DNA of 64,000 bases, taken from contig CAIIXF020000004.1 of assembly GCA_903813345.2 (NCBI GenBank), positions 7,895,525-7,959,524 on the forward strand, read 5' to 3'. Below the pieces are notes generated by a model that had not been told where the DNA came from, made no database searches, and saw only the letters and a program-made list of their open reading frames with translations. Every line of letters starts with the position of its first letter. The stretch's first letter is position 1. Of this stretch, positions 42,958 to 62,287 are shown piece after piece. Source of the DNA: Owenia fusiformis (Eukaryota; Annelida; Polychaeta; Sabellida; Oweniidae). The position numbers and the translations under genes are program-made.

Positions 42958-43227
42958 TATTTTATACTGACAGTGATTTATTTTTGTTCCATACTAATTG
43001 CATGCTAGAAACTTAACCCCGACTGCAAGGTTCAATAACCAAATTGTAAACATATCAAAATATAAAGCAATCAGTTGAATAAAGAATATCCTGAATTAGT
43101 ATGCCATATGGTAGACGAGAAAAACAATCTATTCTTGAATGTTAAAAATTTGACAGACAACAAACAACATAGTAACACAAGAAATATTTATAAAAACAAA
43201 TTTATAATTTTCACATATTAAAGTGAT

Positions 43228-44650
43228 ATGCAAAATATATTTCACTAGTGGTAGGAATGCTTGGTGTGTTCATTGCATCAATAATATATAGTTTTAACAC
43301 ATATGCAATTGCCCTGAAAAAGACTTTCAACTATACACAGACAGAAGTTGAGACTATAGCGTCAAGTGGAGACTTAGGCCAGTACTTAATGCTTCCAGCG
43401 GGACTTATGTATGATAGATTTGGACCAAGACCTCCATGTATAGTCAGCCTTATTCTCACTGGAGTTGGATTTACATTATTATGGATAGGTACAATATTTA
43501 ACAGATTTTTCGCTGCCAATTCTTGGCTTCAAAATGTCATATATTTCGCAGCATCATTTGGAACATCATTTCTGTTTATAACAAGTGTAGGTTTAAACAC
43601 AAAAAACTTTGAAGGGAAACATAGAGTTAGAGTCTTAGTGTTTTTTGGTTGTGTATTTTGGATTGCCCCAATGATATTCAGTGCCATCTATCAAGGCTTT
43701 TTCGTACAAGGCCACATAAAAGATGCAGAGAATCAAAAATATGGAGATTTTATGCTATTCTTAGCAGTGCTGTCCGTGATCGTTAATTTGTTAGCCATTG
43801 CGCTGCTGAAGGAAATTCCAATGAATGAAACATATCAAACAGATGAAACTGAATTAAATGAGCTGTTCAAAACTTTAGAAGAAGAAAGAGATGTGGGAGA
43901 AGCTGATGACAAAGTAAATAGTGAGCACTTCAATGAAAAGACAGAATTGATGTCAAAAGAAAATTGTGGAGATAGCAGTGCTAGTCAACCTGATCTGAAT
44001 AGCTGGCAAATGATATAAATTTTATTACCTCTTTCTGATAGTTATTATTCTCGGTGGAACTGGCGTTACGTTTATTAACAACATCACCATAATTTTGAAA
44101 TCTGTTCACCGAGAATATGACATCGCAGTTTTCACTATATGCCTTCCAATATTTTGTACATTAGGGAAAATTGTTATCACATTTACAAATTATTACATCC
44201 TCCAAAAATGGGATAATATTCCTAAATCAGTGTTTCCACTCCCATGTGCACTGTTAATGTGCATGGGTCTGATTGCTATAATTGTCTTTAATAAGGGGTT
44301 CTGGGGGTTATTTTGTAGTACTTTTTTATTGGGTGTTTCATATGGCGGACTTTTTTTTACAAATACAGTGCGTCTCTATTGAATTATTTGGTATAAAATA
44401 TTTTGCACAGAATGATGCTGTTTTTCTCATTGCACAAAGCATTGGACTGTTTGGGTTTCAACAGTTGTTTGGGTTTAGCTATCAACTCAACAGCCTACCA
44501 GGATCAAATGAGTGCTATGGTGAATCTTGCTCAAAGTGGACATTTGTTCTACAAGCAATTTTATGTTTTTGTGCATTGTTCTTAAACATTTGTCTCATCA
44601 AAATTGAAAGAGATGATAGAATGAAGCAAAAAGAATCCCAGCAAATCTAG
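43228..44650 (+). pseudogene. Transporter array copy 1, nodulin-like MFS pseudogene
   Basis: It is homologous over its length to the intact 487-residue copies but broken. Translation from the ATG at 43228 is disrupted at once by a one-base loss in the A-run after ATGCAA. Near 44013, eight bases are missing after GGCAAATGATA, creating a TAA. Near 44350 an extra base shifts the frame again, and the reading then continues to the normal C-terminus (ERDDRMKQKESQQI, stop at 44648). It also lacks the first 11 codons of the other copies. It is the most diverged copy (for example FIASIIYSF where others have FLVGKIYSF). The gene fragments at 50285, 53893 and 57643 resemble this copy's start, so a copy-1-like gene was once present in each unit. 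Confidence 0.85.
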
Positions 44651-46637
44651 TTTCACATATATAATCTGTTTTTCCAGTTTTATTTGAGAAATCTTAAATT
44701 ATAAAATGGAGGTGCCTATCAATGCCAGACAGTTTTATTTTTGTTGTAGCTATTTTCCATACTTCTCACTAACTGGAACTTTTTTTTGTTTTCATTTGTT
44801 TGAAACGAGAATGTGATTTGACTTAAATTAAACATTTATTTCTTTTATATGCTATAATATTATTAATCATTATAAATTGCAATGCATCAGATATGATATT
44901 TGATATTTTCATTTGCTTCAACTGTGATTCTCTTCTGTAATTAAAAACATGTTTCTATATTTCCAATCAAAATAAACACGAAATTAACAATATGTCAACT
45001 TGTATGTTATGTATATCATTTTATTGCAATTTTAATCATATGATAAAGCTCTTTCAATTATTCATAATTTTTTGGATGTGAGATTTTTCATGTGTGTAAA
45101 GTTTCTATTAATTTTAATCAATAAGTGATGATCATTCATCTTACATGTTTGTCTAGGTGCATTAATACACCTAGATTATTATTTGAGGGTTTATAATTCT
45201 TTTGATTGTCTGTATAACTAGAATATTTAGTACTCTACTTTTCAAAATAGCACAAAACTTCTGAGCACACAAAATCATATGAAGTGACAATGTCCAGGCC
45301 CAGAAGAAGTGAGTAGCTCCCATAATTCTTTCATATTCTATCATATTTTGGGATGGCTCGGGGATTCCCCATTATACGATCTCCAATCAAATTGCAGGAT
45401 GTGATCACGTGATCAATCATGAGTATGTGCTTTCTCAGTGCCGCGTATGCTCAAAGTAAAATTTGAAAACGTTGAAATGGCGTTTATTTCAGTTTGACAT
45501 CAGTTCAGCATCATCATTTCAAAACTATAGGGTAATACTATTTAAGTTACTCGATCCAAACTTTCAGAGAATACACAATTACTCAAGAAATGGTATAATT
45601 AAATTGGCAATGAACTCACAATTTTTTCACTTGGCACCTTTTGAGGTGGATCCCCGCTATGGCATTAATGGTTGAGAAATAGGGATCGAAACCAGCCATA
45701 GTTTTCTCCTGATGACCATTGTGAATTGTTGTGTTTTATGGATTATGATGACGACTTTGCGAATGGATGTTGACCCTTTGAATTGCCTATGGACTTCGAG
45801 ACTGGATTTTATCTATCCCACATCATTTGAGACTGAATACTCTATCTTTTATAAGTACTAGTATCTACAACTATTTTTGATGTTATGAGTATTGGCTATC
45901 AATTTTTTCATTTTTTCTTCAACATGTATTGTAATGACTTCAGTATGAATGAAATGTCCCTTGGTGTTCTGGTCCTGGATTGTGATATTGGTTCTCGATT
46001 GGAGGGGGGAGGGGGATGTTAGACATTGTTTCTTTTCACGTTAGATCATGGTTTTGGGATAAATAGGGTCTACTTTTCTTATGACAGATTTACACTTACA
46101 GTTTGCTTTTCTTGTTGGGTTTCTTTAAAGTTTTTATTCACCCTTCCCTTTGGCATTTGTGCTTATATATTCATAAAACACAAGCGAACATTGAGAGATC
46201 CATTTCAATGGCAAATGAGGCCTGTTTATAAAATTGGTTATCGAACCTGTCAATATGAAAGGTGATCTTTGGGAAATTTCCCCCCCCCCCCCCTTGGTCA
46301 AGGCCCATTCATGGTGTCTCACAAGTGTTCTTGACTGAAAAGACCCCAGGAAACATTGGCAAACATTCAGAAATCATAGGGTAATCCATTATGTTGGAAA
46401 TATTAGCTGTTTATAAATTGACTGCAAATCTACCAACCTCTGATTGCTTAAAAGGCCACCCTCTGATTGCTTAAAAGGGTACCCTCTGATTGCTTAAAAG
46501 GAGTGGACAGTTGAAGTTACGTTTCAGCATATACACCAAAAAACTAACTGTTCATGAAAATTAATAATTTGAATTAAATAAATACAATCTTTAGACAACA
46601 AAACAACAAAGTAACAATAGAACTACAATATTACAAA
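44651..46637. other. Spacer between array copies 1 and 2
   Basis: I see no gene. A polyadenylation-type AATAAA lies near 44972. A 23-bp triple repeat (CCTCTGATTGCTTAAAAGG) is at 46437-46501, and a C-run at 46281-46294. This spacer does not resemble the spacers between later copies. Confidence 0.6.
46437..46501. repeat. 23-bp tandem repeat, three units
   Basis: CCTCTGATTGCTTAAAAGG plus four bases occurs three times in a row, about 140 bp before the start of transporter copy 2. Confidence 0.9.
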
Positions 46638-48101
46638 ATGGTTTATATTTTTAAAATCCAAAAAGAGAACATGCAAAAATATGTTTCACTTATGGTAGGA
46701 ATACTTGGTGTTTTTCTGGTAGGAAAAATATACAGCTTTAACACATATGCAATTGCCCTGAAAAAGACTTTCAACTATACACAGACAGAAGTTGAGACTA
46801 TAGCGTCGAGTGGAGACTTAGGCCAGTACTTAATGGTTCCAGCGGGACTTATGTATGACAGATTTGGACCAAGACCTCCATGTATACTCGGTCTAATTCT
46901 CACTGTACTAGGATTTACGTTATTATGGATGAGTACAATGTTTAATGCATTTTTCGCTGCCAATTCTTGGCTTCAAAACTTCATTTATTTTGCAACATTA
47001 TTTGGAACATCATTTCTGTATATGGCAAGTACAGGAGTCAATGTTAAAAACTTTGAAGGAAAACAAAGGGTTAGAGTTCAGGTGGGTCTTGGTTGCGTAT
47101 TTGGAATTGCCCCAACAATATTTAGTGCCATCTATCAAGGCTTTTTCGTCCAAGGCCACATAAAAGATGCAGAGAATCAAAAATATGGAGATTTTATGCT
47201 ATTCCTAGCAGTGCTGTCAGTGATCGTTAATTTGTTAGCCATTGTGCTACTGAAGGAAATTCCAATGAATGAAACATTTCAAACAGATGAAACTGAATTA
47301 AATGAGCTGTTCAAAACTTTAGAAGAAGAAAGAGATGTGGGAGAAGCTGATGACAATGTAAAAAGTGAGCACTTCAATGAAAAGACAGAATTGATGTCAA
47401 ATGCGAATTGCAAAGACAACACTGCTGGTCCACCTGATCTGAATATATGGCAAATGATACAAACATTGCAATTTTATTACCTCTTTCTGATAATTATGAT
47501 CATAGGTGGGACTGGCGTTACATTTATTAATAACATCACCATAATTTTGAAATCTGTCCATCGGGAATATGACATCACGGTTTTTACAATCTGTCTTCCA
47601 ATATTTTGTACATTAGGAAAAATTGTTATCACATTTCCGACTAATTATATCCTCCAAAAATGGGATAATATTCCTAAATCAGTGTATCTACTTCCATGTG
47701 TACTGTTAATGTGCATGGGTCTGATTGCATTAATTTTCTCCAATCAGATGTTCTTTGGATTATTAAGCGGTACAATTTTAATGGGTTTTTCATATGGGGC
47801 ACTTTTTATACAACTACAATGTGTCGCTATTGAACTATTTGGTATAAAATATTTTGCACAGAACTATGCAGTCTTTTTCTCGGCACAAATCATTGGTATG
47901 TTTGGCTTTCAACAATTGTTTGGATTTAGCTATCAACTTAACAGCCTACCAGGATCAAATGAGTGCTATGGTGAATATTGCTCAAAGTGGACATTTGTTT
48001 TACAAGCAATTTTATGTTTTTGTGCATTGTTCTTAAACATTTGTCTCATCAAAATTGAAAGAGATGATAGAATGAAGCAAAATGAATCCCAGCAAATCTA
48101 G
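46638..48101 (+). CDS. Transporter array copy 2: nodulin-like MFS transporter, 487 aa, single exon
   Basis: This is an intact intronless frame. About twelve hydrophobic segments lie near residues 17-38, 55-73, 80-100, 110-132, 148-170, 185-206, 279-304, 312-334, 348-368, 370-392, 405-430 and 451-471, with a polar, acidic loop at 207-275, the usual MFS layout. GLMYDRFGPR (71-79) after helix 2 is the MFS motif A. The N-terminal part (YSFNTYAIALKKTFNYTQ, then SSGDLGQYLMVPAGLMYDRF) resembles the nodulin-like/MCH group known from plants, fungi and protists. The substrate is unknown. The start context ACAAAATGG is favourable and conserved among copies. Known MFS families elsewhere (SLC43, SLC16) are alternatives. 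Confidence 0.85.
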   Translation: MVYIFKIQKENMQKYVSLMVGILGVFLVGKIYSFNTYAIALKKTFNYTQTEVETIASSGDLGQYLMVPAGLMYDRFGPRPPCILGLILTVLGFTLLWMSTMFNAFFAANSWLQNFIYFATLFGTSFLYMASTGVNVKNFEGKQRVRVQVGLGCVFGIAPTIFSAIYQGFFVQGHIKDAENQKYGDFMLFLAVLSVIVNLLAIVLLKEIPMNETFQTDETELNELFKTLEEERDVGEADDNVKSEHFNEKTELMSNANCKDNTAGPPDLNIWQMIQTLQFYYLFLIIMIIGGTGVTFINNITIILKSVHREYDITVFTICLPIFCTLGKIVITFPTNYILQKWDNIPKSVYLLPCVLLMCMGLIALIFSNQMFFGLLSGTILMGFSYGALFIQLQCVAIELFGIKYFAQNYAVFFSAQIIGMFGFQQLFGFSYQLNSLPGSNECYGEYCSKWTFVLQAILCFCALFLNICLIKIERDDRMKQNESQQI

Positions 48102-48446
48102 TTTCATATTTGTTTGAAGCTAGCATGTGATTTGACTTAAATTAAACATTTATTTCCTTTATATGCTATAATATTATTAATCATTATAAATTGCAATTCG
48201 TTGTCACAAAAATGACAACCAATTGTATGATAATGAAAATGAAAACAAAAATGTTGTCAATTTCTTCATATCAGTGTAAATACCATTATACGAGGGGTGA
48301 TCCAAAAGTCTTGGACGCCCTGCTCTAATTTTGTTTGTTTTTGATAAAATTACTTTTAACTTTCCAATAATAAAGACCAACAACCTAACTACTTTGTGTA
48401 TTAATTTCATGGAGAAATGATATATTCTATGTAGTTTTCTAGATAG

Positions 48447-49226
48447 TTTTTAATATAGGGACCCTGCCACCCGGAACGGTATTCGCACATGGCAACTTTC
48501 AGCCTTAAATGTTGCCGCCGTTTCACTTGTTTCGCAAGTCTTGACCACTATCTTTTTTTGAATTTTGAATGTTAAACCATGCTAGTTTACTTCATTTGTT
48601 ACTACTCAACCAATTAATTGTGTTTTAGTTATAATGTCACATATGACAATGGCCGTATATGTCAAATTCTAAGAAAATGACATCAGACAAGCAACCCTCA
48701 TTCTGGTATCATTTTTGCTGCAAGATGGCTGCTGAAATGCAGAACATGAAAGAAATCAAAGTGGAACAAAGAATAGTTCAAGATATTTTCACTATTATTG
48801 ACCTTGAGCAGCTACCATATGCACGATACAGTCTAGATATGGCTCTGTGTGATTTTCTTCCTTTTCTCCAGAAAAAGGAGGGTTGAAAGAAATTTTTTAT
48901 TGCTCATTGTATGAGGTTTAGAGTGGCACCCCAGCAGCATTTGTATCACATAAGCAATGGCGGTTTCATAAATGACTTCTATTCATTGGTAAAGCGGTAT
49001 GAAAGATGAGTTCAAATTCGCGGAAAATATGTTGAAAAGTAGGTCTTAATATGTGAAGATGATGATGGCATATGGCACTCAGACTGAAAATTGGAAATTC
49101 TCTCATATCATGACTGGTGTTAGGTTGTGCACCTGCACCTAAAGTATTTGCCATACTATAACAGTTGTGACGTGATTTGCTATATTTAAATACCGTTCCA
49201 GGTGGCAGGGACCCGGTATTAAAAAA
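48447..49226. mobile_element. Inner TIR element nested in the mariner-like element
   Basis: TTTTTAATATAGGGACCCTG...CCGGAACGGTATT on the left pairs with an inverted copy at 49190-49226, giving about 35-bp ends. It contains the decayed transposase at 48659-48886. Confidence 0.65.
48659..48886 (+). pseudogene. Decayed mariner-type transposase fragment
   Basis: The translation contains LPYARYSLDMALCDFLPF, close to the conserved mariner transposase stretch around YSPDLAPxD near the catalytic centre. Only about 75 residues remain open. The rest of the transposase is not recognisable, so it cannot be active. Confidence 0.55.
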
Positions 49227-49506
49227 CATTTAGAAAAGTAGCTGAAATATATTATTTTCTGTTGAAACTTATACAAAAAGTTGTTAAGATGTTGATCCTT
49301 ACTCTCTGTAACTTTCAGGTAATTATATTAGGAAATAGCAAAGTTAGAGCGAGGCGTCCAAGACTTTTGGATCGCCCCTCGTATTGCACTTTTATTTACT
49401 TTATGTTATAGTTTTCGTATTAACGTTAAACAATTATATATTTATGTGTTAGCATTGTATATACCATCCCTTTTATTTGGAAAACACATTAACAGTTATC
49501 ACTCTG

Positions 49507-49694
49507 AATTGTTTGGATTTAGCTTTCAACTTAACAGCCTGCCAGGATGAAATGAGTGCTATGGTGAATCTTGCTCAAAGTGGACATTTGTTTTACAAGC
49601 ACTTTTATGTTTTTGTGCATTGTTTTTAAACATTTGCCTCATCAAAATTGAAAGAGATGATAAAATAAAGCAAAAAGAATCACAGCAAACTTGA
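49507..49694 (+). pseudogene. 3' fragment of an array transporter gene, unit 1
   Basis: It matches the last 190 bp of the transporter genes (LFGF...SLPG region to the C-terminus), but GATCAAATGAG is changed to GATGAAATGAG by loss or alteration of a base, and it ends in TGA where the genes end in TAG. It is a gene relic. Confidence 0.85.
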
Positions 49695-50284
49695 TTCCAT
49701 ATTAAATGGAGGGGAGGATAAAACCATGACAGGAAAAAAATTCAATGTACCGATTTTAATTATTTTTCTCTGGTGGGCACATAAGACATTGTGCTTTGAA
49801 GTAAGGGTGATGATTGATTATAAATTCGATCTGTTTTTTCTTGAGGACATTGGAAGTTAACATTACGGCTTATGGTAAAATAATTGTGGTGTGCATTCAC
49901 ACTCTTTTGAATGAAAATTAAACCCTTCCAATAGTGATAGGACCTTAGTTCACCAATGTCATCGCAAGGACCTTAGGTTGGCATGCCAAAATGTAAAATC
50001 TCTATTTTTAACCCTGACTACAAGGTTCAGTAACCAAATTGTAAACATATCAAACTATAAAGCAATCAGTTGAATAAAGTATATCCTGAATTAGTATTTT
50101 AACTAAGGCACTGTTTATATCCTTAGCATTAATAGGAACAGTTTATACAAAGAAGTGGAAAGTTGAAGTCATGATATGCCATATGGTAGACGAGAAAAAC
50201 AATCTATTCTTGAATGTTAAAAATTTCACATACAACAAACAACATAGTAACACAAGAACTATTAAAACGGATTTATAATTTTCA

Positions 50285-50354
50285 CATTCAAAATATATTT
50301 GACTAGTGGTAGGAATGCTTGGTGTGTTCATTACATCAATAATACATAGTTTTA
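50285..50354 (+). pseudogene. 5' fragment of a copy-1-like transporter gene, unit 1
   Basis: ACTAGTGGTAGGAATGCTTG and GTGTGTTCATTACATCAATA match the start of copy 1 (43248-43300). The match stops exactly where the fold-back element begins. Confidence 0.8.
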
Positions 50355-50943
50355 AGGTGCAGTGGTAGTTAACAGGAAATGACAAAACAGGAAGTGACAA
50401 AAAATGTGTCATTTCTAGACATTTTTTGAACAAAGATAACAGAGTTCTGTTTTGACTGGAGCAGTCAATTCAAATAGTTCCACATATTATTTACAGGACA
50501 AGAATCACAATGTACATGGTCAGAATGACCCAAAACATGATGAAATAACGTTTTCAGCCCTCTGAAAATGTGACTGGAAATAGCTAAAGGTAGGAGCTTA
50601 GGAAAGGTCACTGAACAGAATCTTTTGAATTTTTCAGAAAATGTGCCCAATATATCGCTCTAAATAATGCAATCTTTGAAAATGTGATATCATTCGTAGA
50701 AAAAGAAAAAATGAAAAAAACTGAATTGAAAGGTGATCTTTTTTCCTTTTTATGACCGCCATTTTTGTTTCAGACAATTTTCATGGACATTGTGATCCTG
50801 GTCATGTAAATGATATGTGGAACTATTTGAATTGACTGGAGGTCAAAACAGAACTCTGTTATTTTTGTTCAAAAAATGTCAAAAAATGACACATTTTTTG
50901 TCACTTCCTGTTTTGTCATTTTCTGTTAAGTACCACTGCACCT
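50355..50943. mobile_element. Fold-back element, unit 1 (589 bp, internally deleted)
   Basis: It starts AGGTGCAGTGGTAGTTAACA and ends TACCACTGCACCT. The arms are inverted over hundreds of bases (for example GAGTTCTGTTTTGACTGGAG and its inverse near 50844). Compared with the copies at 53964 and 57713 it lacks about 140 bp of the right arm. Confidence 0.9.
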
Positions 50944-51323
50944 AAGGTTCAGCTGGAAAGTAACAGTTTGGTAAAAAATTGCTATACTTGCACATTTTAT
51001 TTTCTAGTACAAAATTAAGTATGAAGGCATGTGTATATTTCCTTGCTTTGTTCTGGAAAGTATCATTACATTGTCTCCTTCTAGTAAACCTGGAAACAGG
51101 TCAATGTTAGCTCCTGTGTTGTCTGGAAACTTTGAAAGAAAATTGGAAAAATAGAAAGTATGAAATATCAGAATTTCCTGGAGTTCCCATTGACCTCTTA
51201 ACAGATATACTAAAAGAAGACAATGTTATGATACTTTCCTAAAAAAAAGCAAGGAAATTAACACATGCCTTCATACTTCATACTTTAGACAACAAAGAAA
51301 CAATAGAACTACAGTATTACAAA

Positions 51324-52787
51324 ATGGTGCATATTTTTAAAATACAAAAAAAGAACATGCAAAAATATATTTCACTTATGGTAGGAATACTTGGTGTTTT
51401 CCTGGTAGGAAAAATATACAGCTTTAACACATATTCGATTGCCCTGAAAAAGACTTTCAACTATACACAGACAGAAGTTGAGACTATAGCGTCAAGTGGA
51501 GACTTAGGCCAGTACTTAATGGTTCCAGCAGGACTTATGTATGATAGATTTGGACCAAGACTTCCATGCATACTCAGTCTAATTCTCACTGTACTAGGAT
51601 TTACGTTATTATGGATGAGTACAATGTTTAATGCATTTTTTGCTGCCAATTCTTGGCTTCAAAACTTCATTTATTTTGCAACATTATTCGGAACATCATT
51701 TCTGTATATGGCAAGTACAGGAGTTAATGTTAAAAACTTTGAAGGAAAACAAAGGGTTAGAGTTCAAGTGGTTCTTGGTTGCGTATTTGGAATTGCCCCA
51801 ACAATATTTAGTGCCATCTATCAAGGCTTTTTCGTCCAAGGCCACATAAATGATGCAGAAAATCAAAAATATGGAGATTTTATGCTATTCCTAGCAGTGC
51901 TGTCCGTGATCATTAATTTGTTATCCATTGTGCTGCTGAAGGAAATTCCAATGAATGAAACATTTCAAATAGATGGAGCTGAATTAAATGAGCTGTTCAA
52001 AACTTTAGAAGAAGAAATGGAAGTGGGAGAAGCTGATGAAAACATGAATAGCGAGCACTTCAATGAAAAGACAGAATTGATGTCAAATGCTAATTGCAAA
52101 GACAACACTGCTGGTCTACCTGATCTGAATATATGGCAAATGATACAAACATTGCAATTTTATTACCTCTTTCTGATAATTATTATCATAGGTGGGACTG
52201 GCGTTACATTTATTAATAACATCACCATAATTTTGAAATCTGTCCATCGGGAATATGACATCACAGTTTTTACAATCTGTCTTCCAATATTTTGTACATT
52301 AGGAAAAATTGTTATCACATTTACGACTAATTATATCCTCCGAAAATGGGATAATATTCCTAAATCAGTGTATCTACTTCCGTGTGTACTGTTAATGTGC
52401 ATGGGTCTGATTGCATTAATTTTCTCCAATCAGATGTTCTTTGGATTATTAAGCGGTACAATTTTTATGAGTCTTTCATTTGGGGCACTTTTTATACAAC
52501 TACAATGTGTCGCTATTGAACTATTTGGTATAAAATATTTTGCACAGAACTATGCGGTCTTTTTCTCGGCACAAATCATTGGTATGTTTGGCTTTCAAGA
52601 ATTATTTGGATTTAGCTATCAACTTAACAGCCTGCCAGGATCAAATGAGTGCTATGGTGAATATTGCTCAAAGTGGACATTTGTTTTACAAGCAATTTTA
52701 TGTTTTTGTGCATTGTTCTTAAACATTTGTCTCATCAAAATTGAAAGAGATGATAGAATGAAGCAAAATGAATCCCAGCAAATCTAG
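51324..52787 (+). CDS. Transporter array copy 3: nodulin-like MFS transporter, 487 aa, single exon
   Basis: This is an intact frame with the same twelve-segment layout and motif A as copy 2. By my reading it differs from copy 4 at only two residues (Lys/Glu at 10, Leu/Pro at 265). Against copy 2 it carries changes such as A39S, P80L, G85S, G150V and K176N, with a cluster at 216-245 in the acidic central loop. It begins about 380 bp after the fold-back element, in a unit of 3,750 bp that is repeated next door. Confidence 0.88.
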   Translation: MVHIFKIQKKNMQKYISLMVGILGVFLVGKIYSFNTYSIALKKTFNYTQTEVETIASSGDLGQYLMVPAGLMYDRFGPRLPCILSLILTVLGFTLLWMSTMFNAFFAANSWLQNFIYFATLFGTSFLYMASTGVNVKNFEGKQRVRVQVVLGCVFGIAPTIFSAIYQGFFVQGHINDAENQKYGDFMLFLAVLSVIINLLSIVLLKEIPMNETFQIDGAELNELFKTLEEEMEVGEADENMNSEHFNEKTELMSNANCKDNTAGLPDLNIWQMIQTLQFYYLFLIIIIIGGTGVTFINNITIILKSVHREYDITVFTICLPIFCTLGKIVITFTTNYILRKWDNIPKSVYLLPCVLLMCMGLIALIFSNQMFFGLLSGTIFMSLSFGALFIQLQCVAIELFGIKYFAQNYAVFFSAQIIGMFGFQELFGFSYQLNSLPGSNECYGEYCSKWTFVLQAILCFCALFLNICLIKIERDDRMKQNESQQI

Positions 52788-53098
52788 TTTCATATTTGTT
52801 TGAAACTAGCATGTGATTTGACTTGAATTAAACATTTATTTCCTTTATATGCTATAATATTATTAATCATTATAAATTGCAATTTGTTGTCACAAAAATG
52901 ACAACCAATTGTATGATAATGAAAATGAAAACAAAAATGTTGTCATTTTCTTCATATCAGTGTAAATACCATTATATTGCACTTTTATTTACTTTATGTT
53001 ATAGTTTTCGTATTAAGGTTAAACTTATTCATCTATGTGTTAGCATTGTATATACCATCCCTTTTATATGGAAAACACATTAACAGTTATCACTCTAA

Positions 53099-53286
53099 AT
53101 TGTTTGGATTTAGCTATCAACTTAACAGCCTGCCAGGATGAAATGAGTGCTATGGTGAATCTTGCTCAAAGTGGATATTTGTTTTACAAGCAATTTTATG
53201 TTTTTTGTGCATTGTTTGTAAACATTTGTCTCATCAAAATTGAAAGAGATGATAAAATAAAGCAAAAAGAATCACAGCAAATTTGA
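53099..53286 (+). pseudogene. 3' fragment of an array transporter gene, unit 2
   Basis: It is the same relic as at 49507, here with an extra T in the TTTTTTGTGC run that shifts the frame. It ends AAATTTGA. Confidence 0.85.
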
Positions 53287-53892
53287 TTCCATATTTCATA
53301 GTGGGGGAGATAAAACCATGACAGGAAAAAAATTCAATGTACCGATTTTAATTATTTTTCTCTGGTGGGCACATAAGACATTGTGCTTTGAAGTAAGGGT
53401 GATGATTGATCATAAATTCGATCTGTTTTTTCTTGAGGACATTGGAAGTTAACAATGCGGCTTATTGCAAAATAATTGTGGTGTGCATTCATACCCTTTT
53501 GAATGAAAATTAAACCCTTCCAATAGTGAACTGACCTTAGTTCACCCATGCCATTGCAAGGACTTTAGGTTGGCATGCCAAAATGTAAAATCTCTATTTT
53601 TTACCCTAACTGCAAGGTTCAGTAACCAAATTGTAAACATATCAAACTATAAAGCAATCAGTTGAATAAAGTATATCCTGAATTAGTATTCTAACTAAGG
53701 GACTGTTTATATCCTTAGCATTAACAGGAACAGTTTATACAAAGAAGTGGAAAGTTGAAGTCATGATATGCCATATGGTAGACAAGAAAAACAATCTATT
53801 CTTGAATGTTAAAAATCTGACAGACAACAAACAACATAGTAACACAAGAACTATAACAAAACGGATTTATAATTTTCACATTCAAAAGTGAT

Positions 53893-53963
53893 ATGCAAAA
53901 ATATATTTCACTAGTGGTAGGAATGCTTGGTGTGTTCATTACATCAATAATACATATGTTTTA
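53893..53963 (+). pseudogene. 5' fragment of a copy-1-like transporter gene, unit 2
   Basis: The translation MQKYISLVVGMLGVFITS matches the start of the family, with the A-run intact, unlike copy 1. It is cut off at the fold-back element after ACATATGTTTT. Confidence 0.85.
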
Positions 53964-54694
53964 AGGTGCAGTGGTAGTTAACAGGAAATGACAAAACAGG
54001 AAGTGACAAAAAATGTCATTTTTAGACATTTTTTGAACAAAGATAACAGAGTTCTGTTTTGACTGGAGCAGTCAATTCAAATAGTTCCACATATCATTTA
54101 CAGGACAAGAATCACAATGTACATGGTCAGAATGACCCAAAACATGATGAAATAACTTTTTCAGCCCTCTGAAAATGTGACTGGAAAATAGCTAAAGGTA
54201 GGAGCTTAGGAAAGGTCACTGAACAGAATCTTTTGAATTTTTAGAAAATGTGCCCAATATATCGCTCTAAATAATGCAATCTTTGAAAATGTGATATCAT
54301 TCGTAGAAAAAGAAAAAATTGAACAAAACTGAATTGAAAGGTGATCTATTTTCCTTTTTATGACTGCCATTTTTATTTCAGACAATTTTCTAAAATTTCG
54401 AAGATTGTATCAGGGTACATTTTCTGAAAAAATCAAAAGATTCTGTTCAGTGACCTTTCCTGAGGGCTACTTTTAGCTATTATTCAGTCACATTTTCAGT
54501 GGGCTGAAAAAGTTATTTCTTCATGTTTAAGGTCATTCTGACCATGGACATTGTGATCCTGGTCATGTAAATGATATGTGGAACTATTTGAATTGACTGG
54601 AGATCAAAACAGAACTCTGTTATCTTTGTTCAAAAAATTACACATTTTTTGTCACTTCCTGTTTTGTCATTTTCAGTTAAGTACCACTGCACCT
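53964..54694. mobile_element. Fold-back element, unit 2 (731 bp, full arms)
   Basis: The outer ends AGGTGCAGTGGTA and TACCACTGCACCT enclose two long inverted arms, including CACTGAACAGAATCTTTTGA and its inverse near 54440. No open frame. It is part of the duplicated unit. Confidence 0.92.
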
Positions 54695-55073
54695 AAGGTT
54701 CAGCTGGAAAGTAACAGTTTGGTAAAAATTGCTATACCTGCACATGTTATTTTCTAGTACCAAATTAAGTATGAAGGCATGTGTATATTTCCTTGCTTTT
54801 TTCTGGAAAGTATCATTACATTGTCTCCTTCTAGTAAACCTGGAAACAGGTCAATGGTAGCTCCTGTGTTGTCTGGAAACTTTGAAAAAAAATTGGAAAA
54901 ATAGAAAGTATGAAATATCAGAATTTCCTGGAGTTCCCATTGACCTCTTAACAGATATACTAAAAGAAGACAATGTTATGATACTTCCCTAAAAAAAAGC
55001 AAGGAAATTAACACATGCCTTCATACTTCATACTTTAGACAACAAAGAAACAATAGAACTACAGTATTACAAA

Positions 55074-56537
55074 ATGGTGCATATTTTTAAAATCCAAAAA
55101 GAGAACATGCAAAAATATATTTCACTTATGGTAGGAATACTTGGTGTTTTCCTGGTAGGAAAAATATACAGCTTTAACACATATTCGATTGCCCTGAAAA
55201 AGACTTTCAACTATACACAGACAGAAGTTGAGACTATAGCGTCAAGTGGAGACTTAGGCCAGTACTTAATGGTTCCAGCAGGACTTATGTATGATAGATT
55301 TGGACCAAGACTTCCATGCATACTCAGTCTAATTCTCACTGTACTAGGATTTACGTTATTATGGATGAGTACAATGTTTAATGCATTTTTTGCTGCCAAT
55401 TCTTGGCTTCAAAACTTCATTTATTTTGCAACATTATTCGGAACATCATTTCTGTATATGGCAAGTACAGGAGTTAATGTTAAAAACTTTGAAGGAAAAC
55501 AAAGGGTTAGAGTTCAAGTGGTTCTTGGTTGCGTATTTGGAATTGCCCCAACAATATTTAGTGCCATCTATCAAGGCTTTTTCGTCCAAGGCCACATAAA
55601 TGATGCAGAGAATCAAAAATATGGAGATTTTATGCTATTCCTAGCAGTGCTGTCCGTGATCATTAATTTGTTATCCATTGTGCTGCTGAAGGAAATTCCA
55701 ATGAATGAAACATTTCAAATAGATGGAGCTGAATTAAATGAGCTGTTCAAAACTTTAGAAGAAGAAATGGAAGTGGGAGAAGCTGATGAAAACATGAATA
55801 GCGAGCACTTCAATGAAAAGACAGAATTGATGTCAAATGCTAATTGCAAAGACAACACTGCTGGTCCACCTGATCTGAATATATGGCAAATGATACAAAC
55901 ATTGCAATTTTATTACCTCTTTCTGATAATTATTATCATAGGTGGGACTGGCGTTACATTTATTAATAACATCACCATAATTTTGAAATCTGTCCATCGG
56001 GAATATGACATCACAGTTTTTACAATCTGTCTTCCAATATTTTGTACATTAGGAAAAATTGTTATCACATTTACGACTAATTATATCCTCCGAAAATGGG
56101 ATAATATTCCTAAATCAGTGTATCTACTTCCGTGTGTCCTGTTAATGTGCATGGGTCTGATTGCATTAATTTTCTCCAATCAGATGTTTTTTGGATTATT
56201 AAGCGGTACAATTTTTATGAGTCTTTCATTTGGGGCACTTTTTATACAACTACAATGTGTCGCTATTGAACTATTTGGTATAAAATATTTTGCACAGAAC
56301 TATGCGGTCTTTTTCTCGGCACAAATCATTGGTATGTTTGGCTTTCAAGAATTGTTTGGATTTAGCTATCAACTTAACAGCCTGCCAGGATCAAATGAGT
56401 GCTATGGTGAATATTGCTCAAAGTGGACATTTGTTTTACAAGCAATTTTATGTTTTTGTGCATTGTTCTTAAACATTTGTCTCATCAAAATTGAAAGAGA
56501 TGATAGAATGAAGCAAAATGAATCCCAGCAAATCTAG
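55074..56537 (+). CDS. Transporter array copy 4: nodulin-like MFS transporter, 487 aa, single exon
   Basis: This is an intact frame almost identical to copy 3 exactly 3,750 bp upstream, with coding and spacer DNA equally similar. That points to a recent tandem duplication or gene conversion. Features are as for copies 2 and 3. If expressed, copies 3 and 4 would make functionally equivalent proteins. Confidence 0.88.
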   Translation: MVHIFKIQKENMQKYISLMVGILGVFLVGKIYSFNTYSIALKKTFNYTQTEVETIASSGDLGQYLMVPAGLMYDRFGPRLPCILSLILTVLGFTLLWMSTMFNAFFAANSWLQNFIYFATLFGTSFLYMASTGVNVKNFEGKQRVRVQVVLGCVFGIAPTIFSAIYQGFFVQGHINDAENQKYGDFMLFLAVLSVIINLLSIVLLKEIPMNETFQIDGAELNELFKTLEEEMEVGEADENMNSEHFNEKTELMSNANCKDNTAGPPDLNIWQMIQTLQFYYLFLIIIIIGGTGVTFINNITIILKSVHREYDITVFTICLPIFCTLGKIVITFTTNYILRKWDNIPKSVYLLPCVLLMCMGLIALIFSNQMFFGLLSGTIFMSLSFGALFIQLQCVAIELFGIKYFAQNYAVFFSAQIIGMFGFQELFGFSYQLNSLPGSNECYGEYCSKWTFVLQAILCFCALFLNICLIKIERDDRMKQNESQQI

Positions 56538-56848
56538 TTTCATATTTGTTTGAAACTAGCATGTGATTTGACTTGAATTAAACATTTATTTCCTTTATAT
56601 GCTATAATATTATTAATCATTATAAATTGCAATTCGTTGTCACAAAAATGACAATCAATTGTATGATAATGAAAATGAAAACAAAAATGTTGTCATTTTC
56701 TTCAAATCAGTGTAAATACCATTATATTGCACTTTTATTTACTTTATGTTATAGTTTTCGTATTAAGGTTAAACTTATTCATCTATGTGTTAGCATTGTA
56801 TATACCATCCCTTTTATATGGAAAACACATTAACAGTTATCACTCTAA

Positions 56849-57036
56849 ATTGTTTGGATTTAGCTATCAACTTAACAGCCTGCCAGGATGAAATGAGTGC
56901 TATGGTGAATCTTGCTCAAAGTGGATATTTGTTTTACAAGCAATTTTATGTTTTTTGTGCATTGTTTGTAAACATTTGTCTCATCAAAATTGAAAGAGAT
57001 GATAAAATAAAGCAAAAAGAATCACAGCAAATTTGA
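56849..57036 (+). pseudogene. 3' fragment of an array transporter gene, unit 3
   Basis: It is nearly identical to 53099-53286, with the same frame-shifting extra T and terminal TGA. Confidence 0.85.
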
Positions 57037-57642
57037 TTCCATATTTCATGGTGGGGGAGATAAAACCATGACAGGAAAAAAATTCAATGTACCGATTTTA
57101 ATTATTTTTCTCTGGTGGGCACATAAGACATTGTGCTTTGAAGTAAGGGTGATGATTGATCATAAATTCGATCTGTTTTTTCTTGAGGACATTGGAAGTT
57201 AACAATGCGGCTTATTGCAAAATAATTGTGGTGTGCATTCACACCCTTTTGAATGAAAATTAAACCCTTCCAATAGTGAACTGACCTTAGTTCACCCATG
57301 CCATTGCAAGGACTTTAGGTTGGCATGCCAAAATGTAAAATCTCTATTTTTTACCCTAACTGCAAGGTTCAGTAACCAAATTGTAAACATATCAAACTAT
57401 AAAGCAATCAGTTGAATAAAGTATATCCTGAATTAGTATTTTAACTAAGGGACTGTTTATATCCTTAGCATTAATAGGAACAGTTTATACAAAGAAGTGG
57501 AAAGTTGAAGTCATGATATGCCATATGGTAGACAAGAAAAACAATCTATTCTTGAATGTTAAAAATCTGACAGACAACAAACAACAAAGTAACACAAGAA
57601 CTATAACAAAACGGATTTATAATTTTCACATTCAAAAGTGAT

Positions 57643-57712
57643 ATGCAAAAATATATTTCACTAGTGGTAGGAATGCTTGGTGTGTTCATTACATCAATAA
57701 TACATAGTTTTA
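57643..57712 (+). pseudogene. 5' fragment of a copy-1-like transporter gene, unit 3
   Basis: It is the same fragment as at 53893, ending at the fold-back element after ACATAGTTT. Confidence 0.85.
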
Positions 57713-58445
57713 AGGTGCAGTGGTAGTTAACAGGAAATGACAAAACAGGAAGTGACAAAAAATGTGTCATTTTTAGACATTTTTTGAACAAGGATAACAG
57801 AGTTCTGTTTTGACTGGAGCAGTCAATTCAAATAGTTCCACATATCATTTACAGGACAAGAATCACAATGTACATGGTCAGAATGACCCAAAACATGATG
57901 AAATAACTTTTTCAGCCCTCTGAAAATGTGACTGGAAAATAGCTAAAGGTAGGAGCTTAGGAAAGGTCACTGAACAGAATCTTTTGAATTTTTCAGAAAA
58001 TGTGCCCAATATATCGCTCTAAATAATGCAATCTTTGAAAATGTGATATCATTCGTAGAAAAAGAAAAAAATGAACAAAACTGAATTGAAAAGTGATCTA
58101 TTTTCCTTTTTATGACTGCCATTTTTGTTTCAGACAATTTTCTAAAATTTCGAAGATTGTATCAGGGTACATTTTCTGAAAAAATCAAAAGATTCTGTTC
58201 AGTGACCTTTCCTGAGGGCTACTTTTAGCTATTATTCAGTCACATTTTCAGTGGGCTGAAAAAGTTATTTCTTCATGTTTAAGGTCATTCTGACCATGGA
58301 CATTGTGATCCTGGTCATGTAAATGATATGTGGAACTATTTGAATTGACTGGAGATCAAAACAGAACTCTGTTATCTTTGTTCAAAAAATGTCAATTTTT
58401 TGTCACTTCCTGTTTTGTCATTTTCAGTTAAGTACCACTGCACCT
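57713..58445. mobile_element. Fold-back element, unit 3 (733 bp, full arms)
   Basis: It has the same outer ends and arms as the copy at 53964, with a few base differences (for example GGATAACAGAG against AGATAACAGAG). Confidence 0.92.
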
Positions 58446-58820
58446 AAGGTTCAGCTGGAAAGTAACAGTTTGGTAAAAAATTGCTATACCTGCACATGTT
58501 ATTTTCTAGTACAAAATTAAGTATGAAGGCATGTGTATATTTCCTTGCTTCTTTTCTGGAAAGTATCATTACATTGTCTCCTTCTAGTAAACCTGGAAAC
58601 AGGTCAATGGTAGCTCCTGTGTTGTCTGGAAACTTTGAAAAAAAATTGGAAAAATAAAAAGTATGAAATATCAGAATTTCCTGGAGTTCCCATTGACCTC
58701 TTAACAGATATACTAAAAGAAGACAATGTTATGATACTTTCCTAAAAAAAGCAAGGAAATTAACACATGCCTTCATACTTCATACTTTAGACAACAAAGA
58801 AACAATAGAACTACAATATT

Positions 58821-60836
58821 TCAATTTCAATTTTCAATTTTATTCTTTAATAATACATATATGGTTTACATAATTACACATAGTAGGTGGCATCATTTTC
58901 AGACGCTTATACCCACACATACGAGAACGGAATATGGTGTACAAAAATTTAACATAAGAATCAACTCAATCTTGATCAGTGGTATTGTCAAATTATAGCG
59001 ACACTATAGTTATTCATTTGCAAGTGAGTGGAAACTGGATATCTCAGATAATGTAAATAGATATGTGAATATATTAAGACATAAATGTATATGCACATTA
59101 AGACAAATACTCAAACAAAATATGTGACATAAACTAATAACTGATATCAATAGCCAGTAAATATATACAGAATATTGATAATGCACCAAACTGTAAACAG
59201 TTAATGTCATACAAGACTTGTATGTAGATGAAGGAGTTATTGTAGCTATCATAGCACAATGGCAGAAATTACATTTATATGGTACATAAATGTAGTGTGA
59301 AGTGAGGTTATTCCAGTCATAGTTTTTTTTGTTTTAGTAACATTTTCGACCGTACCGTGATATTAATAAGAATTCAATTAGCCAATTAATCTAGTTGGTT
59401 CTACTGTTAATAAGTTGTTGATAGATTTCATGGGGATTAGAATTAATGTCCACTTCAGTACGGTGACATCTGTTGTCAAACCCTTGAAAAGAACAGAAAA
59501 CTTTCCCATTAAACATCCAACAGTCTTTCACAAAATCCATATTCCTAACTGTTTTCATCAGCTTGACATTCTTTCCAGTGGCATCCTCATGGATAGCAAT
59601 ACCTGTTTTGACAAGTTTCTTCCTGTTTTTTATCATACGGTGCCTAGGCTCATTAGTGTTGAACTTTGCAATCAGTGCCCTCTTTCTACCTGGTACTTTA
59701 AGTCCAACTCTATGCGCAATATCAATATCTGATTTGGAAATATTAGCTTCAATTCGCTCGGCAACTTCAAGAACTAATGATATACAATCTTCATTTTCCG
59801 TTTCCTCGATTCCACTAATCTTAATGTTACTTTTCCGAGAATATTGTTCATTTTTATTTGATTCTGCTTCAACTTCTGCCAAACGTTTATTCAAACCAAT
59901 AATTTCGTCATTGGCCTGAATAAGATCAGATTCGAAAGAATCATTGATGTATTTTAGTTGTTGTATTGATGTTTCAGCATTTGATAGTCTTTGATTATAT
60001 GCTGCCATAGAGCTGTTGATTGATTGCGGAATTAATTCATTCAGAGAAGTGTTGATTTGAGATTCTATAGCAGTTACAATTTCACTAATATTTGAGCTTG
60101 AGATTTGGGAAGTACATTCATTGTCTTGTGGTAGCGATGAATCTGCGCGAAATGGTGTTGAGATCGGATGGGAACAAGGTTGGTGTGGGGATTCTGAGAC
60201 CGAGTGGAAACTTCCCGACATATAGTCGATGGTTGGAACGGTGAATGTCATATTGGCTGATGAGGCTGTTGATGATATAACACTAGTTGTAATGACTGAT
60301 AAAAAGGTGGAAGACATAACAGGTAGACAGGGTTGAGACAGTCCTTCTTGATCTGCTGGTTTTGTTATTGTTGTTGCATACTGGGTAATAGGTGCTTGTG
60401 TTAAATGTGACATGGTATTATATGTGTTTGATTGCACCCAAAACACTATATCCTATTTGAGTGAAGTCAGTCTGGTAAAGTCACACTGGTCTATAAATAG
60501 TGAGCTGGCAAATCCAATAAATAGCTGATTATTAGTGTTACTGTATTATGACACAGTCTGGTACATGTGTACTGCTTTTGAACTATGTCATTTATAAATC
60601 CATAACATAATATGTGTATTTTTCTTCTGCAAATATCTTTAAAACCACAAGTAATATTCCTATAATTCACATCTGTCTATCATGCCTATTCATTCATGAA
60701 TCTAGAGGTGTCCATATTTTTGTCGATATAATCCTAAATAATATCCTTCTATTTCACATAATAACAGGAGCAAAATAAGTGTGTCTGAACTCAGTTATAC
60801 TACACTACATATCACAAATATATATATTACAAATAT
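58821..60836 (-). mobile_element. ORF1-only LINE-like insertion 11 bp before the start codon of copy 5
   Basis: The host leader, continuous in copies 2-4 as CTACARTATTACAAAATGG, is split after CTACAATATT (58820) and resumes with AATATTACAAAATGG (60837), giving a target duplication of about 6 bp. On the minus strand the element has a leader, one open frame (59391-60446), then about 570 bp ending with AATAAAATTGAAAATTGAA, a polyadenylation-type word followed by a short AAATTG tail. No reverse transcriptase frame is present, so it is non-autonomous. Confidence 0.8.
59391..60446 (-). CDS. LINE ORF1-like protein, 351 aa
   Basis: This is an intact frame. Residues 1-110 are Ser/Thr/Pro-rich. A heptad-rich stretch of about 60 residues follows (SNAETSIQQLKYINDSFESD and NKRLAEVEAESNKNEQYSRK). 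The C-terminal half reads SNIKISGIEETENEDC, DIDIAHRVG, RALIAKFNTNEPRHRMIKNR and WMFNGKVFC, the pattern of ORF1p-type nucleic-acid-binding proteins of invertebrate non-LTR retrotransposons (coiled coil, RRM-like domain, C-terminal domain). Such proteins bind the element RNA. The intact frame suggests recent activity. I call the protein class, not the exact clade. Confidence 0.75.
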   Translation of the reverse strand: MFWVQSNTYNTMSHLTQAPITQYATTITKPADQEGLSQPCLPVMSSTFLSVITTSVISSTASSANMTFTVPTIDYMSGSFHSVSESPHQPCSHPISTPFRADSSLPQDNECTSQISSSNISEIVTAIESQINTSLNELIPQSINSSMAAYNQRLSNAETSIQQLKYINDSFESDLIQANDEIIGLNKRLAEVEAESNKNEQYSRKSNIKISGIEETENEDCISLVLEVAERIEANISKSDIDIAHRVGLKVPGRKRALIAKFNTNEPRHRMIKNRKKLVKTGIAIHEDATGKNVKLMKTVRNMDFVKDCWMFNGKVFCSFQGFDNRCHRTEVDINSNPHEIYQQLINSRTN

Positions 60837-60847
60837 AATATTACAAA

Positions 60848-62287
60848 ATGGTGCATATTTTTAAAATACAAAAAGGGAACATGCAAAAATATGTTTCACT
60901 TCTGGTAGGAATACTTGGTGTTTTTCTGGTAGGAAAAATATACAGCTTTAACACATATGCAATTGCCCTGAAAAAGACTTTCAACTATACACAGACAGAA
61001 GTTGAGACTATAGCGTCAAGTGGAGACTTGGGCCAGTTCTTAATGGTTCCAGCGGGACTTATGTATGATAGGTTTGGACCAAGACCTCCATGTATACTCG
61101 GTCTAATTCTCACTGTACTAGGATTTACGTTATTATGGATGAGTACAATGTTTAATGCATTTTTCGCTGTGAATTCTTGGCTGCAAAACTTCATTTATTT
61201 TGCAACATTATTCGGAACATCATTTCTGTATATAGTAAGTACAGGAGTTAATGTTAAAAACTTTGAAGGAAAACAAAAAGTTTGAGTTCAGGTGGTTCTT
61301 GGTTGCGTATTTGGAATTGCCCCAACAATATTCAGTGCCATCTATCAAGGCTTTTTCGTACAAGGCCACATAAAAGATGCAGAGAATCAAAAATATGGAG
61401 ATTTTATGCTATTCCTAGCAGTGCTGTCCGTGATCATTTATTTGTTAGCCATTGCGCTGCTGAAGGAAATTCCAATGAATGAAACATTTCAAATAGATGG
61501 AGCTAAATTAAATGAGCTGTTCAAAACTTTAGAAGAAGAAAGAGACGTGCGAGAAGCTGATGAAAACATGAATACCGAGCACTTCAATGAAAAGACAGAA
61601 TTGATGTCAAATGCGAATTGCAAAGACAACACTGCTGGTCCACCTGATCTGAATATATGGCAAATGATACAAACATTGCAATTTTATTACCTCTTTCTGA
61701 TAATTATTATTATAGGTGGAACTGGCGTAACGTTAATTAATAATATCACCATAATTTTGAAATCTGTCCATCGGGAATATGACATCACAGTTTTCACAAT
61801 CTGTCTTCCAATATTTTGTACATTAGGAAAAATTGTTATCACATTTACGACTAATTATATCCTCCGAAAATGGGATAATATTCCTAGATCAGTGTATCTA
61901 CTTCCGTGTGTACTGTTAATGTGCATGGGTCTGATTGCATTAATTTTCTCCAATCAGATGTTCTTTGGATTATTAAGTGGTACATTTTTTATGAGTCTTT
62001 CATTTGGGGCACTTTTTATACAACTACAATGTGTCGCTATTGAACTATTTGGTATAAAATATTTTGCACAGAACTATGCAGTCTTTTTCTCGGCACAAAT
62101 CATTGGTATGTTTGGCTTTCAAGAATTGTTTGGATTTAGCTATCAACTTAACAGCCTGCCAGGATCAAATGAGTGCTATGGTGAATATTGCTCAAAGTGG
62201 ACATTTGTTTTGCAAGCAATTTTATGTTTTTGTGCATTGTTCTTAAACATTTGTCTCATCAAAAGAAAAGAATCACAGGAAGTTTGA
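60848..62287 (+). pseudogene. Transporter array copy 5: MFS gene with one nonsense codon and altered 3' end
   Basis: The frame is otherwise continuous, but codon 146 (Arg, AGA, in copies 2-4) is TGA at 61283-61285. A valid reading resumes in the same frame to 62287. The C-terminus is LIKRKESQEV where the intact copies have LIKIERDDRMKQNESQQI: about 24 bases are missing and the downstream sequence (TTTGATTCCATATT) matches the 3' fragments at 53286 and 57036. The LINE-like element at 58821-60836 separates it from its normal leader. A truncated 145-residue product (four helices) or an internal start at about 61292 are possible but unlikely to be functional. Confidence 0.88.

Follow-up and report, generated by a model that had tools for sequence, protein, structure and literature searches.

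Within a 64,000-nucleotide stretch of the genome of the annelid Owenia fusiformis (contig CAIIXF020000004.1, positions 7,895,525 to 7,959,524; hereafter the window), five single-exon genes of the major facilitator superfamily (MFS), numbered here as copies 1 to 5, lie head to tail on the + strand at 43155-62287, and three of them are intact. This array proved to belong to a far larger transporter family that is spread across the genome and includes 58 intact single-exon genes. The account that we consider probable is that an intron-less founder arose from an animal gene of the SLC16/nodulin-like kind, that it spread through duplication at the DNA level, and that its descendants, mostly held under purifying selection, would act as carriers with differing substrates.

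The assembly searched comprised 498 Mb, with twelve large contigs of 32-62 Mb; the genome report gives 505.8 Mb and 12 chromosome-scale scaffolds (PMC9977687). Of four Owenia primers in PMC8111721, the two forward ones were looked up: that for syt1 had a single exact match, within a frame resembling by eye the membrane region of a synaptotagmin, and that for elav1 had none, for which a sequence variant or an exon junction could be responsible. COX1 had no match in the assembly. The species is taken to be Owenia fusiformis or one very close to it. Copy 3 as genome query gave at least 90 matches (87 of 109 candidates scored), and the Pfam Nodulin-like profile gave at least 74, every one above its cut-off. 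The 77 loci studied, 72 cut outside the window plus the five window copies, included the 58 intact single-exon genes (467-511 amino acids [aa]), 18 broken or partial copies, together with a single gene whose coding sequence is split into three exons. Each of the twelve large contigs carried loci, and one locus was on a small contig; 32 of the 77 fell into 12 same-strand clusters (gaps of <50 kb), the window array being one of these, and the other 45 were solitary. The members were diverse, with a median pairwise identity of 40% (62 rows). Nevertheless, an alignment of 42 of the 58 intact members contained 18 invariant columns, and His174, Asp177, Asn180, Gln181, Asn299, Cys443, and Cys448 were identical in 59/59 proteins, i.e., the 58 intact ones and the spliced multi-exon protein. 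The conserved pair Cys443/Cys448 may form a disulphide in a loop. Outside this set, an SfMCT-like match of 112 bits, covering positions 2-176, was seen at C9:14440554-14441081 within a 653-aa open frame, which is possibly an additional single-exon carrier.

How the copies spread can be read from five young interchromosomal pairs, with synonymous divergence (dS) of 0.09-0.13. Their shared blocks began 10, 24, 67, 94, and 174 nt upstream of the ATG and ended 2, 65, ~420, ~425, and 1281 nt past the stop codon. Serial retroposition, by which every dispersed copy would have been made anew from mRNA, finds support in these short upstream stretches and in the single-exon structure of 58/58 intact copies. 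However, no poly(A) was seen by eye at the edges of the ten young copies, and no target-site duplication was found there, the longest shared words being 4-6 nt, as in random pairs. Furthermore, one block extended 1.28 kb beyond the stop and took in interspersed repeat DNA, another ended only 2 nt past the stop, and 12/12 clusters were same-strand. Since poly(A) and target-site duplications were lacking at these edges and one block carried repeat DNA, short DNA-level duplication is favoured over retroposition for the five pairs, and we regard serial retroposition as an unlikely source of the family. The founder would instead have multiplied through short DNA-level duplications, both dispersed and tandem. 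No shared mobile element was found at the edges across the ten flanking stretches and the window. No shared TATA box or upstream word emerged: a TATA box was present upstream in 14/58 genes, compared to 16/58 downstream and 12.4 in shuffles, and no strong shared word was detected upstream of 31 representatives. The repeat at L080:5260-5780 (C11:18.918 Mb) is ~340 bp long, tandem in places and with a separate 44-bp piece, and gave at least 66 matches (40 of 1908 candidates scored); we take its arrangement to recall that of non-autonomous rolling-circle elements.

Assignment to a protein class was based on profiles. MFS_1 (PF07690) scored 62.7-93.3 bits in the four scanned window copies (cut-off 33.4) and matched 42/42 aligned members at E 0.001. 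The nodulin-like identity proposed in the earlier note, which was made from the sequence of the window, was borne out as well, with Nodulin-like (PF06813) scores of 46.8-52.2 bits in the same four copies (cut-off 24.7), 50.0 bits for copy 5 in the genome profile search, and matches in 36/42 members at E 0.001. Because this profile matched in 0/14 prokaryotic control genomes and was absent from both OFA proteins scanned, the label exceeds general MFS similarity. The OFA comparison is weak evidence, since L053 and L056, which scored 36.3 and 54.9 bits in the genome search, were also missed by the second tool used there; speed filters may explain this disagreement. L053 belongs to a three-gene cluster, L053-L055 (C12:26036241-26043917), of a divergent subfamily with modest Nodulin-like scores of 36-43 bits. 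The profile of the NFD4-type C-terminal half, NFD4_C (PF23262), matched 14/42 members at E 0.001 and 19 places in the genome; copy 2 was borderline (24.2 and 27.1 bits in two scans, cut-off 27), and copies 3 and 4 gave no match. L053, L056, and L060 exceeded its gathering score, but so did a Vibrio OFA protein, and NFD4_C is therefore less exclusive than Nodulin-like.

Among the NCBIfam models at E 0.01, SfMCT (NF049980) matched 42/42 and OFA (TIGR00890) 36/42 members, with copy 3 well below the curated cut-offs (68.4 versus 320 bits and 46.5 versus 374.85 bits, respectively) and no place in the genome above that of SfMCT. The earlier note had also proposed a comparison with SLC16 profiles; of these, TIGR00892 matched only 3/42 members at E 0.01, copy 3 not among them. 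The motif DGGxGW at the first transmembrane helix (TM1), typical of SLC16, was absent from the 42-member consensus, and one of the genome's own SLC16-type genes has it. When the 42-member profile was compared with solved structures, the best matches were SfMCT (3e-12) and OxlT (2e-7), followed by a sugar efflux transporter (2e-4), MCT10 (3e-4), and then MCT2, MCT1, and MCT8 (to 0.02); no SLC43 or ApiAT chain was found among the 16 PDB matches.

In OxlT, Arg272 and Lys355 bind oxalate. The family position aligned with Arg272, in TM8, was R in 44/59 and K in 8/59 proteins (basic in 52/59), while the TM11 position in the Lys355 column varied (H in 21, Q in 9, N in 8 of 59, and others). From this, we infer that the family consists of carriers of carboxylates or related small metabolites whose substrates have diversified; at the level of the class, carboxylates or amino-acid-like solutes are our best guess. 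Such proteins would move small organic anions or amino-acid-like solutes by alternating access, with the TM8 Arg/Lys binding the carboxylate and the variable TM11 position tuning specificity. The 58 genes would then represent carriers that each handle different solutes, and not the amplification of a single gene to raise its dose. A further suggestion, which we make tentatively and hold to be somewhat improbable, is that this single-exon repertoire, with its divergent pockets and the scale of a chemoreceptor family, all from one intron-less SLC16-like copy, could serve combinatorial uptake or sensing of dissolved organics in the sediment.

Recent amplification for the dosage of one transporter had been raised in the earlier note. 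Only for copies 3 and 4, which are near-identical, could this idea hold; the family as a whole is diverse, the array is one cluster among 12, positions aligned with the pocket differ, and two of the five window copies are broken. We consider it distinctly unlikely that a need for dose accounts for the family.

A multi-exon parent gene in the same genome had been named as something to look for, and one multi-exon relative was indeed found, on contig C1. Its coding region is split into three exons by two GT-AG introns, 2036 and 173 nt long and both in phase 1. No second multi-exon member was seen by eye among at least 143 matches to its third exon (95 of 162 candidates scored), a search that genes with short exons could escape. 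Broken members with long gaps at L068 (C2:22.66 Mb) and L019 (C4:7.23 Mb) were considered as candidates for further introns and rejected, since the gaps are bounded by inverted repeats and look like insertions of DNA elements. In L068, the inverted repeats at the ends of the insert are near-perfect and lie next to a TA. For comparison, four SLC16-type genes with a long exon, found through the SfMCT-like genome search, were fetched; the third exon of one of them matched MCT1/MCT2 at 3e-21. In an alignment made without regard to introns, the C1 relative had its second intron at column 153 in phase 1 with GT-AG borders, and the same was true of 3/3 SLC16-type genes read on both sides; in the fourth, only the acceptor was seen, at the matching place. 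Given the shared column and phase, this intron probably dates back to the ancestor, and the 58 genes would have lost it. When 39 of the 59 family proteins were placed in a tree with four OFA proteins, the family formed one clade (100/100), and a single clade of intron-less genes was not rejected (p-AU 0.385). One loss of introns is thus the simplest reading: an animal gene with introns, akin to SLC16 and nodulin-like genes, would have given rise, most simply once, to an intron-less copy, either as a processed copy or by intron loss.

The earlier note had left the choice between a retrocopy and a transferred ancestor, and of these an intron-less founder is supported, given the relative on C1, and transfer is not. 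Horizontal transfer of an intron-less gene from a bacterium, alga, or protist, followed by multiplication, would agree with the lack of introns in the family genes and with weak matches to prokaryotic OFA carriers: in a plasmid tblastn search, copy 2 hit 7 records with identities of 18-25%, of which two carry an OFA carrier annotation. The same search with L061 returned no match. Most of what is known of Pfam's Nodulin-like family comes from plants, fungi, and protists, which also counts for transfer. However, a viral and a prokaryotic collection, without algae or protists, yielded no relative in pattern scans, by which distant relatives would be missed, and the multi-exon relative shares the column and phase of its intron with the SLC16-type genes. 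Because that intron is probably ancestral, an intron-less founder of animal origin is favoured, and we judge transfer to be very unlikely.

Most copies would have stayed under purifying selection after they arose. Among 25 close pairs, hand-picked from the most similar, the ratio of nonsynonymous (dN) to synonymous divergence was 0.10-0.49 in 23, and departure from neutrality was found for copies 2 and 3 (Fisher p 8e-5) and copies 3 and 4 (p 0.006), calculated from rounded counts. That the family is mostly a dead multicopy repeat, or copies 3 and 4 an artefact of assembly (a false tandem duplication), is very unlikely: 18/77 loci are broken or partial and relics lie within the array, but 58 frames are open with invariant motifs, dN lies below dS, and the window contains zero N.

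Several observations weigh against descent from an animal SLC16/nodulin-like gene with later diversification of carriers, or against parts of this account. The SfMCT profile also matched 13/14 prokaryotic control genomes, in one of them over its cut-off, and other MFS models matched family members too (nitrate carriers 10/42, bile salt carriers 15/42); since the SfMCT model is loose and these other models match, the substrate assignment is weakened. Among the solved structures, the sugar efflux transporter scored like MCT10. The TM8 basic residue was missing in 7/59 proteins. Structure prediction for three window proteins reached a predicted local distance difference test score (pLDDT) of 31.6, and the helix count, fold, and pocket therefore rest on profile alignments. 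The first intron of the C1 relative was not at the nearby SLC16 intron, and the position of this gene in the tree was weakly supported (92/49), which makes a single intron loss the simplest reading rather than a proven one. Finally, the remaining two of the 25 pairs had dN/dS of 0.63 and 1.08, with 10 and 15 substitutions, respectively; the latter pair includes a copy without a start codon.

In the open-licence literature searched, no description of this family was found, and no paper there named 'Owenia fusiformis' together with 'major facilitator superfamily'; among those that mention nodulin-like proteins and invertebrates, none treated nodulin-like carriers of animals, judged by titles and the starts of abstracts. 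If expressed, the genes would constitute a single-exon transporter family of very large size for an animal, in a reference species for annelid evolution. Its intron loss would be polarised by a surviving intron-bearing relative together with the animal's own SLC16-type genes, and at two positions known from OxlT its members provide naturally occurring variants in series. According to the genome report, 5,779 models overlapping repeats were removed from the Owenia gene set (PMC9977687), and since repeat masking can catch multicopy single-exon genes, published gene sets may under-count the family.

As for the array itself, the earlier note had described five young single-exon copies, three of them intact, beside multi-exon neighbours, and each part of this description agreed with our results. 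Copies 2 (46638..48101), 3 (51324..52787), and 4 (55074..56537), all on the + strand like the other two, each consist of one ATG-to-stop open frame of 487 aa. Copy 1 (43155..44658) is broken by two frame shifts, one near 44016 and the other somewhere in 44282-44355, and copy 5 (60848..62287) by one in-frame stop at 61283-61285, its protein being 92% identical to that of copy 3. As had been stated, exactly two residues separate copy 3 from copy 4; both belong to the youngest tandem duplication (50782..58824, +), in which 98.7% identity across 4.3 kb gives a repeat unit of ~3.75 kb. The neighbouring genes are multi-exon, namely PSMD1/RPN2 on the minus strand and an exon of MED12; a CH domain match, below cut-off, marks a further neighbour.

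Beyond what had been noted before, including the genome-wide family, the array contains relics of gene ends and starts, all on the + strand. Decayed C-terminal fragments lie at 49506..49703, 53098..53296, and 56848..57046, and decayed start-region fragments at 53767..53964 and 57517..57713. The latter two abut foldback inverted repeats (53964-54694 and 57713-58445), which are ~80% self-complementary. Between copies 4 and 5, a 353-aa frame on the minus strand (59391-60452) resembles ORF1 of a long interspersed nuclear element by eye; a genome search with it gave at least 91 matches at E 1e-10 (115 of 198 candidates scored), and Pfam gave nothing over cut-off.

Of the known systems, the Nodulin-like/NFD4 proteins (PF06813 plus PF23262) share with the Owenia family the first profile, over cut-off in window copies and found in 36/42 members, and NFD4_C in 14/42. 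Unlike them, 28/42 members had no NFD4_C match at E 0.001, and the Owenia genes are animal and single-exon, the likeness being one of profiles and not of plant sequences. The ApiAT amino-acid transporters of apicomplexans, which are SLC43-like, are also MFS carriers expanded within lineages, as described in the report on them (PMC6386423), a likeness by description and not by sequence. With SfMCT and the OFA carriers, including OxlT, the family shares matches to NF049980 (42/42) and TIGR00890 (36/42) and a basic residue at the Arg272 position (52/59), whereas copy 3 is far under the curated cut-offs and the Lys355 position is not kept. With SLC16, there is profile similarity to MCT10, MCT2, MCT1, and MCT8, and the second intron of the multi-exon relative, though not its first, has the same column and phase in three SLC16-type genes of the genome; in contrast to SLC16, only 3/42 members match TIGR00892, the DGGxGW-type start of TM1 is missing, and 58 genes carry no coding introns.

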